This document shows, in pieces, positions 6,450 to 45,427 of a DNA stretch of 45,427 bases. The notes beneath the pieces were generated by a model, which saw nothing but the letters and a program-made list of their open reading frames with translations, was not told the DNA's origin and did not search any database. Numbering within the stretch: the stretch's first letter is position 1; each line of letters opens with the position of its first letter. This DNA is from Candidatus Gastranaerophilales bacterium. Its GTDB lineage: Bacteria; Cyanobacteriota; Vampirovibrionia; Gastranaerophilales; Gastranaerophilaceae. Where the stretch lies: NCBI GenBank assembly GCA_944326535.1, contig CALVEJ010000008.1:1-45427 (forward strand). Reading direction: 5' to 3'. The position numbers and the translations under genes were made by a program.

Positions 6450-7838
6450 TTACTTGTTACAAGATGCTTTTAGGTATTCATCAATAGCTTTTGCTGCACG
6501 TTTGCCTGCACCCATGGCATTTATGGCATTTGATTCTCCGGTCGGAGCAACATCTCCGCCTGCGTAGACTCCGGGAATTGTAGTCTCGCCTGTCTGCTCG
6601 TTTACGACAATGTAACCGCGGCTGTTTGTTTCGAGATCAAGTCCTTCTTGTTCTGCTGATTTTTGTATAATCGGGTTTGGACCTGTTCCCAGTGCAACAA
6701 TTACTGCATCAAGATCTATGGTGACAGATTCTCCGGTTGGGACAGGACGTCTTCTTCCCGAAGCATCAGGTTCACCAAGTTCCATAATGTCAAACTTCAT
6801 CGCTTTAACCCAGCCGTTTTCTCCTAATATTTCGGCGGGTGCATGCAAGAATTTGAAAACAACGCCTTCTTCTTTTGCGTGTCTAATTTCTTCAAGTCTT
6901 GCAGGAAGTTCTTTTTCTGTTCTTCTATATGCAATAAAAACTTCTTTGTAACCGACTCTGACTGCGGTTCTTGCAGCATCCATCGCAACGTTTCCGCCTC
7001 CGATTACAGCTACCTTTTCACCTACTTTAAGAGGTGTGGGTGTGCTGTCTTCATTTGCGTGCATCAGGTTTACTCTTGTCAAAAATTCATTGGCGCTGTA
7101 TACCCCGTTAAGGTTTTCACCTGCAATATGCATCATTTTGGGCAGTCCTGCACCGGAACAAAGGAAAATGGCTTTGAAACCATCCTCTTTGAGCTGATTA
7201 ATTGTTATGGATTTTCCTACAATAACGTTCTTTTCAAATTTTACGCCTATTGCTTTAAGCCCGTCTATTTCTCTGTCGAGAACAGTTCTGGGAAGACGGA
7301 AAGGAGGGATGCCGTATCTTAGAACTCCTCCAAGTTTGTGCAGTGCTTCAAAAACAGTTACGTCGTATCCTGCTTTTCTTAGATCGGCAGCTGCTGTGAT
7401 GCCTGCACAACCCGAACCTACTATTGCTACTTTAATTCCGTTATCTTTAATTTCTCCTGTTTTTGCATCTGTTTTGTCTCCTACATATCTTTCAAGAGCA
7501 CCTATTGCAACAGGTTTGTCTTTTATTCCGAGTATGCAGTTGCCTTCGCACTGTCTTTCCTGCGGGCAGACTCTGCCGCAAACGGACGGAAGCATACTTG
7601 TTTGTCTTATTATGTCTCCGGCTTTTTGCAGGTCGTTTTCTTTAATCGCTGCTATAAAGTCAGGTATTTGAATATTAACGGGACAGCCTTTTACGCATCT
7701 TGCATTTTTGCAGTGCAAGCATCTGGATGCTTCCAAAGATGCCTGTTCATCTGTAAAATTGCTTTCAACTGCATCAAAATTTGTTCTTCTTATTTGTGGA
7801 TCCTGTTCAACAGGATGCTGTCTTTCAACTTTTTCCAT
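6450..7838 (-). CDS. gltA: NADPH-dependent glutamate synthase, small-subunit/homotetramer type (GltA/GltD)
   Basis: Flavoprotein oxidoreductase of the GltD family. The N-terminal domain has two Fe-S Cys clusters (C40, C43, C48, C52 and C87, C91, C97, C101). The FAD-binding loop VAIVGSGCAGITAA follows at about 137-150, and the NADPH-binding loop VAVIGGGNVAMDAAR at about 276-290. Length 462 aa matches the single-gene homotetrameric form known in Clostridia and Thermotogales; no large glutaminase-bearing subunit is adjacent. Related NfnB/sulfide dehydrogenase subunits share this architecture, so the exact reaction is inferred from the glnA gene upstream on the same strand. A ribosome binding site (aggg) lies 4 nt before the ATG. 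An extended hairpin separates it from glnA. Confidence 0.85.
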   Translation of the reverse strand: MEKVERQHPVEQDPQIRRTNFDAVESNFTDEQASLEASRCLHCKNARCVKGCPVNIQIPDFIAAIKENDLQKAGDIIRQTSMLPSVCGRVCPQERQCEGNCILGIKDKPVAIGALERYVGDKTDAKTGEIKDNGIKVAIVGSGCAGITAAADLRKAGYDVTVFEALHKLGGVLRYGIPPFRLPRTVLDREIDGLKAIGVKFEKNVIVGKSITINQLKEDGFKAIFLCSGAGLPKMMHIAGENLNGVYSANEFLTRVNLMHANEDSTPTPLKVGEKVAVIGGGNVAMDAARTAVRVGYKEVFIAYRRTEKELPARLEEIRHAKEEGVVFKFLHAPAEILGENGWVKAMKFDIMELGEPDASGRRRPVPTGESVTIDLDAVIVALGTGPNPIIQKSAEQEGLDLETNSRGYIVVNEQTGETTIPGVYAGGDVAPTGESNAINAMGAGKRAAKAIDEYLKASCNK

Positions 7839-40660: not shown

Positions 40661-41494
40661 TTATTGCTCTTTTTCGTTAAATATAAATGACTGTTTTGCC
40701 GCTACACCCAGCCCTATACCGGCAAGAATATATGTTCCGAGCGCAAGCGCATAATTCTTTTTAAGAATTTTTAAACCGGCAGGGTTGTTCAATACTTTTT
40801 TTGCAGCTTTTATTCCTCTTCCTGAAGCAATAGCTTCTTCTGCTATAGTTGGAAGAAATGCGCAGAAACCAAGAATACCTGCATTACGTTCAATAAAGTT
40901 TTTCTTTTCACCGGGTTTGTCATTTGATATGAGTCCGTTTGCAAGAAGCAGTGCCATGGGAGCATATCCTGCATATTTTCTTGTACCTTGTAAAAATTTA
41001 GTAAAGCCATGTTTTGCATTGATAGCATGTCCAAGTTCATGTAATATCAATGACGGTTTGGATTTTGGTGCAACTGCAAGTTTTATTTTGTTTGCAAAAA
41101 ATGCATTTTCGCCTTTTGCAACGGCTTCAATTTCTTTTCCCAGTCCGTATCTTGTAGCATATGCCGCTTTGTTTGCTTCATCTACAAATCCGACTGTTAC
41201 ATCAAGATTGTTTTTTGTTACCATGTCTTTTGCAACTTTTACAACTTTGTCGGGTGTCGTAAATTCTTTTCCGGCGCTCAGTTTATTCGATAAGATTTTT
41301 GATCCTTTTTCAAGCCCTGTAGATATAACTTGAAGCAATGCAGCCAACCCCAGTGTCTTTGCTGCTTGCTGCGGATCATTTGATGTGCTTTCATTTGTAT
41401 AGTACGGGGGCTGACCGTATCCTCCGTAATATGGATTTATATACGGACTTGTGTATAAATTAGGGTTAATTTGTTGCGTACTGATTGGAATCAT
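40661..41494 (-). CDS. Membrane-associated HExxH metallopeptidase-like protein
   Basis: A 277-aa protein. Its Pro/Tyr/Asn-rich first 40 residues look disordered. The zinc motif SLILHELGHAINAKH (His152, Glu153, His156) is followed by hydrophobic helices at about 176-190, 203-218 and 244-265; EE at 219-220 (PTIAEEAIAS) may supply the third ligand. This order (HELGH before membrane helices) suggests an intramembrane or membrane-bound protease, but homology to M48/M50 is unproven. The ATG is preceded by only a weak aggta. Confidence 0.6.
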   Translation of the reverse strand: MIPISTQQINPNLYTSPYINPYYGGYGQPPYYTNESTSNDPQQAAKTLGLAALLQVISTGLEKGSKILSNKLSAGKEFTTPDKVVKVAKDMVTKNNLDVTVGFVDEANKAAYATRYGLGKEIEAVAKGENAFFANKIKLAVAPKSKPSLILHELGHAINAKHGFTKFLQGTRKYAGYAPMALLLANGLISNDKPGEKKNFIERNAGILGFCAFLPTIAEEAIASGRGIKAAKKVLNNPAGLKILKKNYALALGTYILAGIGLGVAAKQSFIFNEKEQ

Positions 41495-43658: not shown

Positions 43659-43875
43659 AGTTTCGTAGGTTGGGCATACTTGCCCAACGATAAAATTGGA
43701 CATTAATTTGACTCGAAATTCTCTTTGTTTTTGAATTTCAGTCTAATTTAAAAATAATCTTTGTAATTTTATGTTCTAATAAAATCTGATTTCGTCTGGT
43801 TTGTTTTTTATAATCAAGCAGCTTCCGACGGCTAATATTTAGTGTTGTTGGGCAGGTATGCCCAAACGACAGTCC
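43659..43875. mobile_element. MITE/REP-like inverted-repeat element, copy 1
   Basis: Left end agtttcgtaggttgggc opens the palindrome GTTGGGC-N6-GCCCAAC; right end holds its inverted copy, gttgggcaggtatgcccaaa, and finishes in cgacagtcc. The first 73 bp match copy 2 with one mismatch; the middle is diverged. No open frame or transposase is inside. It fills most of the 422-bp gene-free stretch between the NUDIX gene and the HExxH gene; nothing else was seen there. The GTAG before the palindrome recalls REP elements of the RAYT type, but that is inference. Confidence 0.75.
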
Positions 43876-44020
43876 CTAATAATCCTGTTCTATAATAAAT
43901 TTCTCTTTTATCAATAGTTTGTTGATTTATGTACTAAAAAATATTTATATTTTTGTGGCAATTTTAAAAACATAAATGTTTTTATAAAAATAGTAGGTAA
44001 GTTAATAAAGGAATATCATC

Positions 44021-44971
44021 GTGTCAGAAATTCGTCCAAGCATCGTTAGCGTTCGTCCATACCAATATGTTGGAGCTAATCTGTCAAATATAAGGAAGGT
44101 AAGCAATCCTGTTGAGCAAAATAATAAACCGAAAGGAATGTCAAGAGGAAAGAAGATTACTATTGCAACAGTTGCTGCTGCTCTGCTGGGTATTGGAGCC
44201 ATTGTTATAACAAGGGGAAAAGCTGCGGCAAAAGCTGCACAAAAGGCAAAATTGCTTGCAGATATTCCGCCGGAACTGCAAACAAGATTTTCTGCAATCA
44301 AAGACCTTAAAGGTAAGGAATTTGTTGACAGGGCTTATTCTGAACTTGTTGAGTATATGGGACTTAAAGGTGTTGCACCCAAAGAAGTTGCTATAAAAAA
44401 TGCGGATGGTCTTTTCAGTGTAACAGGCGGTTATAATTGTATAGACAACACTATTGAATTTTCAGAAGGCATTTTGACAAAGTTGTGCAAAAAAGATCAG
44501 ATTGGTATGATGGCCCATGAACTGCGCCATTGCAAACAATATACGGATATGCTGAGAACAGAGGGTATTACTGTTGAAAAATATGTTGAATCTACTGTAA
44601 AAAGTATGTTGGAGAGAGCTAAAAATAATGGGTTTAATATGCAATATCAATTTGCATATAATGTGGCAAAAGAACAAGGAAGACTGCAAGAGTTTTTGAC
44701 AAATGTAAAAAAACAATGGACAAAAGATTTATCAAAAAAGGTCAGAGAAAATTATAAAGATGTTCTTGCAATGCCAAAGATTAAGGCGAATTCGCCTGAG
44801 GGTATAAAAGCTTATGAAAATTTAAAGGCAAACAGTGAATATGTCGGGCTCGGATTTTTGGGTTCGGGTTCCGATGCATATAGAAACAACCCGGTTGAAG
44901 TAGATGCGTATGCATTTGGCGACAAAATTGAAGAAATGTTTGAAAAGTTTATTAAAGCAGTAAATATTTAG
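44021..44971 (+). CDS. HExxH metallopeptidase-like protein with N-terminal basic membrane segment
   Basis: A 316-aa protein starting at GTG 44021 (aagga upstream). The N-terminus is Ser/Val/Pro-rich; a hydrophobic helix follows at about 45-64 (ITIATVAAALLGIGAIVI). The zinc motif MMAHELRHCKQY has His166, Glu167 and His170, and NPVEVDAYAFGDKI supplies a likely third ligand, Glu293. This spacing is that of a zincin with a distant Glu. The genome context gives no substrate. A probable membrane-anchored metalloprotease, not assigned to a named family. Confidence 0.6.
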   Translation: MSEIRPSIVSVRPYQYVGANLSNIRKVSNPVEQNNKPKGMSRGKKITIATVAAALLGIGAIVITRGKAAAKAAQKAKLLADIPPELQTRFSAIKDLKGKEFVDRAYSELVEYMGLKGVAPKEVAIKNADGLFSVTGGYNCIDNTIEFSEGILTKLCKKDQIGMMAHELRHCKQYTDMLRTEGITVEKYVESTVKSMLERAKNNGFNMQYQFAYNVAKEQGRLQEFLTNVKKQWTKDLSKKVRENYKDVLAMPKIKANSPEGIKAYENLKANSEYVGLGFLGSGSDAYRNNPVEVDAYAFGDKIEEMFEKFIKAVNI

Positions 44972-45134
44972 TATAGTTTAATATAAAAAACGGGACAAGA
45001 CGTTGCCTTGTGGTTCTCATCCCCCCATAAAACAAAAAAGACTCTATCCGGAGTCAAAAAACGAAGCAGGGAGGAGATTGTCTTGTTCGCTCGCATATAA
45101 CGGCGTTACGCCTTCCACCTACGCGTAAGGCTTC
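44972..45134. other. Gene-free stretch beside MITE copy 2
   Basis: No gene seen. It holds the minus-strand terminator at 45034-45055 and minor dyads such as GGCG-tta-CGCC near 45103-45113. Confidence 0.5.
45034..45055 (-). terminator. Terminator, minus strand
   Basis: GACTC-N6-GAGTC (45040-45044 with 45051-45055) preceded on plus by six A; on minus this is a stem followed by TTTTTTG. It would end the minus-strand gene entering from the right edge. Confidence 0.55.
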
Positions 45135-45352
45135 AGTTTCGTCGGTTGGGCATACTTGCCCAACGATAAAATTGGACATTAATTTGACTCGAAATTCTCT
45201 TTGTTTTGTGAGTTTCAGCCCAATTTAAAATATTATTTGTAATTTTGTGTCCTAATAAACTCCAATATAATCTGTTTTATGAATACAATATCAAACAGCT
45301 TTCTACTACTGAAGGTTAGTGTTGTTGGGCAAGTATGCCCAACCGACAGTCC
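45135..45352. mobile_element. MITE/REP-like inverted-repeat element, copy 2
   Basis: 218 bp, left end gtcggttgggcatacttgcc, right end its exact reverse complement over at least 23 bp (ttgggcaagtatgcccaaccgac). Each terminal repeat is itself a GTTGGGC/GCCCAAC hairpin. The first 73 bp equal copy 1 save one base; the middle is diverged, so the copies are not recent duplicates of the whole element. No frame inside. The outer flanks (gcttc left, gaagc right) add a further imperfect repeat. Confidence 0.8.
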
Positions 45353-45427
45353 GAAGCAATGCATTGTGTGTTTTCTTCTAGCATAATTTCGTAACCGACA
45401 AGTGCTGTGGATTTCCAGTCCAAGAAT
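45316..45427 (-). CDS. C-terminal end of a minus-strand gene (partial)
   Basis: On the minus strand from the right edge, 36 codons run without a stop to TAA at 45316-45318; the translation begins FLDWKSTALVGYEIMLEE. The last dozen codons lie in the right end of MITE copy 2, and the terminator at 45034-45055 lies downstream. Other frames are open too for part of this length, so this is a weak call. Confidence 0.3.
   Translation of the reverse strand, partial: FLDWKSTALVGYEIMLEENTQCIASDCRLGILAQQH

Follow-up and report, generated by a model that had tools for sequence, protein, structure and literature searches.

The closest described counterparts of the elements reported here are the REPINs of Pseudomonas fluorescens SBW25 (Bertels & Rainey 2011, PMC3116915). 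These are inverted doublets of short palindromic REPs that form one hairpin; they are extragenic, multicopy and tied to a RAYT acting in trans, with the doublet as the likely unit, and in all of this our elements resemble them. In SBW25 the two REPs are spaced 71 or 110 bp apart, whereas those of the present doublets lie ~180 bp apart around a spacer conserved across species; moreover, we find four full doublets in a metagenome-assembled genome (MAG) without a RAYT and, unlike in SBW25, a pair placed around an exchanged gene. A second likeness is to the HH dimers of the GTAG-tagged REP super-family (Di Nocera 2013, PMC3733652), which share the 20-40 nt stem-loop, the outward GTAG foot and the conserved spacer. 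Here, in contrast, many feet read GTCG, and the spacer exceeds the 20-100 bp reported for most dimers. That super-family is known in Cyanobacteria, and Melainabacteria go without mention in the part of the paper covered here (PMC3733652). Third, the RAYTs found in relatives of our organism agree with the description of TnpA-REP subclass 2.4, or RAYT group 4 (Quentin 2018, PMC6006769), in which intragenic REPs in RAYT genes and "double foot" REPs have already been reported. An intragenic REP in a RAYT is thus no new discovery, and we do not put it forward as one.

The window (the whole 45,427-nucleotide stretch of DNA analysed) carries two such doublets near its right end. A preliminary description had proposed two same-orientation copies of ~217 bp, with ends that are inverted copies of each other, around a gene for an HExxH protein, and the features below bear this out.

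43660..43875, plus strand: copy 1 (c1), REPIN-type inverted REP doublet, ~217 bp
43665..43688, plus strand: c1 left REP, GTAG foot followed by GTTGGGC-ATACTT-GCCCAAC
43689..43846, plus strand: c1 spacer, 158 bp, conserved, with full-length alignment to sister-species copies
43847..43870, minus strand: c1 right REP, inverted, GTCG foot, one degenerate base
45136..45352, plus strand: copy 2 (c2), REPIN-type inverted REP doublet, ~217 bp
45141..45164, plus strand: c2 left REP, GTCG foot followed by GTTGGGC-ATACTT-GCCCAAC
45324..45347, minus strand: c2 right REP, inverted, a perfect inverted repeat of the c2 left REP

Each REP is 24 nt, GT(A/C)G-GTTGGGCATACYTGCCCAAC, and each copy is an inverted doublet with the feet outward. 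Start to start, c1 and c2 are 1476 nt apart, and they are 83% identical over the unit. The terminal inverted repeat of c2 is a perfect 24 nt, GTCGGTTGGGCATACTTGCCCAAC (45141-45164 / 45324-45347); c1 keeps these ends at 88%, with an aggtat loop and one broken base at the right end. The earlier argument that the loop sequence reveals the true reverse orientation of the two ends is correct. Also as first described, the left part of the two copies is nearly identical and the middle has drifted: 98.6% identity over the left 69 aligned columns versus 76.5% over the other 149 (Fisher p = 8e-6). The shared left end suggests, from this alignment, recombination or gene conversion between the copies. Folded as single-stranded DNA, c2 scores z = -8.0 against shuffles. 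The spacer of ~158 bp is unusually long for REPINs. The contig stops 75 bp past c2 (window 45353-45427), and a leftward reading frame that runs off its end (...YEIMLEENTQCIASDC...) seems to stop within c2.

Searching the 1.97-Mb host MAG with the 20-nt REP core, allowing up to three mismatches, gave 33 copies, versus none for a reversed-pattern control, and for this reason we judge that the elements are not chance occurrences. Among 31 listed REP copies, the foot directly 5' of the hairpin stem reads GTAG or GTCG in 30 and GTAA in one. Most REPs in this genome are singletons; full doublets number four, two in the window and one each on contigs C76 and C39. The copy number in the host is below the >100 usual for REPINs. 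Since these full copies differ by ~17-24%, the doublets are old. In the genus (23 genomes), about ten genomes carry the doublet, at 74-83% identity and with the same boundaries but different flanks, and the sister-species copies sit at unrelated sites. Genome G009 has two copies on different contigs that are 97% identical over 254 bp. Within the wider family (Gastranaerophilales), the REP is patchy, being present in 54 of 146 genomes; many of the REP pairs listed there are spaced 179-188 bp apart, as in this doublet, and others ~300 bp, which is the RAYT-locus distance. One further stretch (L044 / L058, G011:C17 8601-11348) holds three doublet copies in 2.7 kb, all in one orientation and two of them incomplete. 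At least one small gene lies between two of these copies, possibly a further bracketed-gene arrangement.

Several sister species extend the doublet unit by a conserved right arm of ~40 bp (TTTATTnTA...CAACAAACTGGACATTAAARTACA) that the window copies lack. We considered whether a larger autonomous element ends in CAACAAACTGGACATTAAARTACA and rejected this, as the motif also stands alone and once forms a tandem array; its occurrences led to no autonomous element. The motif CAACAAACTGGACATTAAAATACA likewise occurs alone and, in locus L086, is tandemly repeated with TATCCGTACAAATCAAAC units (L086 and L079). Other repeats crowd such intergenic gaps. The copy count proposed at the outset was thereby obtained for the host and its relatives, but the empty sites that were to accompany it were not: none of the copies yielded a clean empty-site allele, and a joined-flank search, covering flanks other than those of G010 and G011a, returned many repeat matches, none of them across a junction.

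A strong hairpin, a conserved spacer and a frequent position downstream of genes could also belong to a structured non-coding RNA or terminator kept for its function rather than for mobility. Against this, the window has no Rfam match, double-sided changes affect only 3 of 32 consensus pairs and the covariation term gives it no support. Moreover, the copies occupy unrelated loci and share their ends with dozens of single REPs. We consider such a role very improbable.

What of the transposase? The preliminary description likened the elements to a MITE or to a REP doublet that a RAYT/IS200-type transposase, absent from the window, moves in trans, and called for a search for a transposase gene with the same ends. 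Comparison with relatives supports the reading as a RAYT-moved REP doublet well. Searches with the PF01797 profile and a RAYT alignment found no RAYT or Y1 transposase in the host's own 93%-complete MAG, but 8 of the 23 genus genomes have PF01797 matches, and RAYTs bearing this very REP occur in relatives. In these relatives, a REP precedes the RAYT start by ~40-60 nt, and an inverted one sits within the open reading frame near codon 90. Two REP types can be told apart, the C-type, which is the window's, and the G-type (GTTGGGGTTTCTACCCCAAC). Compared with subclass 2.4 as published (PMC6006769), the intragenic REP here is the inverted partner of the upstream REP: both were of the same type in 29 of the 29 loci in which both were detected (15 C/C and 14 G/G), although these loci are related rather than 29 independent events, and the RAYT tree needs few type changes. 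In that tree, the intragenic-REP arrangement forms one group with moderate support (83/92), beside RAYTs with REPs flanking the whole gene. One tree row, L112, owes its C-type label only to a more distant upstream REP and is placed in the G group.

The relatives' RAYT scores 51 bits against PF01797 (cut-off 23) and matches PDB 4ER8, a TnpA-REP bound to its REP hairpin, with E = 2e-32 by sequence profile. The same entry, 4er8, is also the best Foldseek match (E = 1.1e-12). The AlphaFold2 model has a mean pLDDT of 81, with values <50 at residues 88-103, which include the REP-encoded part; the low predicted confidence agrees with the peripheral extension described in the literature. From the features of their intragenic and upstream REPs, rather than from the published profile, the relatives' RAYTs would belong in subclass 2.4. 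The Y1 transposases found with these REPs are of the RAYT type, and a non-exhaustive search found no full-length IS with these ends. Across the family, 42 of 63 RAYT-positive genomes have the REP, versus 12 of 83 RAYT-negative ones (p ~ 1e-10, uncorrected for phylogeny); this count lumps RAYT types and fragments and is partly built in, as RAYT loci hold REPs themselves.

Several RAYT fragments are broken at the intragenic REP, which is a further difference from subclass 2.4 as described. Copies truncated at the 5' end and starting at the intragenic REP occur at L144/L259, L148, L156/L260, L165, L166 and L168; conversely, L273 (G013) retains only the 5' half, with a REP at one boundary and an inverted REP at the other. 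The palindrome in L165 is fused, with GTAG and CTAC on its two sides. The fragments suggest that REPs act as breakpoints in practice, and slippage between the repeated GTTGGGC/GCCCAAC arms could have led to the same outcome. Around position 1500 of L165, the fused palindrome (GTAGGTAGGGCATACTTGCCCAACCTAC) stands directly before the RAYT 3' half, scar-like after loss of the 5' half. Around 1500 in L168, the intragenic REP is an apparent C-type/G-type chimera (GTTGGGCAGGTATCCCCCCAACCTAC). A small repeat, GTCGGATTAGTATGAATAGTCCCCCTAAAAATGTAATCGGTCTGTAGGACATTTC, abuts the inner part of the RAYT REPs in L259 (680-860) and, inverted, in L166 (60-260), and is found in L258 (1040-1200) as well. By eye, the doublet spacer showed no obvious likeness to the RAYT 5' half, which we had considered as its possible source.

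A cassette gene between integron-like attC sites would present a comparable picture. The attC consensus is RYYYAAC...GTTRRRY, which GCCCAAC...GTTGGGC fits, and at several loci a gene is followed by the element. The palindromes, however, reach beyond what would be the R boxes, the majority of copies are single 24-nt REPs footed by GTAG, and the same palindrome frames RAYT genes, which together make attC sites a very remote prospect.

The ~217-bp copies are, very probably, REPINs: small parasitic DNA elements, each a non-autonomous inverted doublet of a GTAG/GTCG-footed REP, which a dedicated RAYT probably moves in trans in relatives of this organism. This identification is made because relatives carry RAYTs with exactly this REP that resemble the TnpA-REP of PDB 4ER8. 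In the proposed mechanism, the doublet ends would fold into single-strand hairpins; an HUH/Y1 single-strand RAYT (TnpA-REP) transposase encoded elsewhere would recognise the hairpin and its GT(A/C)G foot, nick at the foot and then copy or move the doublet in trans. What we observe is how the doublets are built, how many there are, that they are scattered over unrelated sites, that the RAYT unit has a REP of the same type at both ends, and that REP and RAYT tend to occur together; the catalytic step is inferred. Several observations weigh against this reading. The organism's own MAG has no RAYT, and one genome, G003, is REP-rich without a Y1_Tnp match; there are only four full doublets, all old, among mostly single REPs; many feet read GTCG, which the published GT[AG]G does not cover; sister species have the ~40-bp right arm that our copies lack; and no clean empty site came to light. 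As to the first of these, a RAYT was presumably present in this lineage, and its gene would lie in the missing ~7% of the MAG or have since been lost.

The preliminary description had further suggested that the two copies could carry the gene between them along as one unit. The features that bear on this are as follows.

43875..45075, plus strand: segment exchanged horizontally, 90% identical to G013:C30
44021..44971, plus strand: HExxH protein gene, GTG start, 316 aa, weak DUF6782 match below the Pfam cut-off
45062..45075, minus strand: 14-nt match to the 3' end of the G013 tRNA-Ser (tRNA identified by eye), at the right homology breakpoint

DUF6782 denotes a putative metallopeptidase. In G013, the segment lies on contig C30 between an ompH-like gene and the apparent tRNA-Ser, and G022 has a remnant of it at the same place. 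The organism's own ompH locus, 77% identical, is elsewhere (contig C33), and no HExxH gene adjoins it. At four-fold sites, the HExxH gene is 86% identical to its G013 counterpart, versus 21-54% for the other in-frame window genes compared (one listed open reading frame, 6843-7319, overlaps a longer opposite-strand gene and is spurious). The 90% identity of the segment, in which even the non-coding flanks are nearly identical, likewise stands against a mean of 73% over the 31.5 kb of the rest of the window that aligns to G013:C1. Because of these two contrasts, we conclude from sequence comparison that the HExxH gene was recently exchanged horizontally between lineages, with the direction unproven. 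A second HExxH-type protein (LHELGHA), without a Pfam match, is encoded upstream (window 40664-41494, minus strand); unlike the exchanged gene, it is only 55.6% identical to a G013 gene of the same neighbourhood.

The proposal of movement as a unit gains circumstantial support from the exchange of the gene and from the left homology breakpoint (43875), which lies within a few bases of the right edge of c1. The right breakpoint (45075), however, falls 14 nt into the tRNA-Ser 3' end, ~60 bp short of c2, and no clean empty site of the c1-gene-c2 unit came to light, in part because so little of the contig (75 bp) follows c2. One account, which adds to the REPIN identification rather than competing with it, is REPIN-mediated capture, with c1 and c2 as the ends of a larger unit; we hold it possible but on the unlikely side, and its routes share that tentative standing: either a RAYT would have processed the outer REPs, or a circle bearing the HExxH gene and one doublet would have integrated, Campbell-like, into a resident doublet. 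It would fit the recent exchange, the native ompH locus without the gene and the left breakpoint, and the 98.6% versus 76.5% split between the direct repeats is what is expected if a crossover or conversion fell there. It is opposed by the right breakpoint, by the lack of a full doublet in both G013 and G022, by its being a single instance and by the fact that gene carriage is unreported in the REPIN papers compared.

Alternatively, the HExxH gene may have arrived by ordinary horizontal transfer and illegitimate recombination, with the REPINs settling earlier or later in a gap that is a hot-spot for repeats. Intergenic REPs are common in this genome, repeats crowd such gaps, gene content past the TolC-like gene differs among the organism's own genome, G013 and G005, and a tRNA-Ser 3' end is a usual island boundary. 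The placement of the left breakpoint on the c1 edge and the near-identical c1/c2 left ends speak against such a coincidence, which we nonetheless consider marginally probable, and which is compatible with the elements being REPINs. Recombination accounts for the HExxH picture as well as transposition does, and the gene may have been inserted with or without recombination or conversion between c1 and c2. REPIN-assisted gene capture is plausible but unproven, and it is doubtful that a composite unit, with the pair as its ends or as handles for recombination, carried a host gene between lineages.

The REPIN pair is a known kind of element in a little-studied host. REP/RAYT systems have mostly been studied in Proteobacteria; they are now placed in gut Gastranaerophilales, where many related RAYTs and two REP types are open to comparison. 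The part worth following is the pair's possible role in fixing an exchanged gene. If REPIN pairs can fix foreign genes, a class of element regarded as serving only itself would also be a vehicle for moving genes, and one could catalogue and test those accessory genes of these genomes that lie between doublets.
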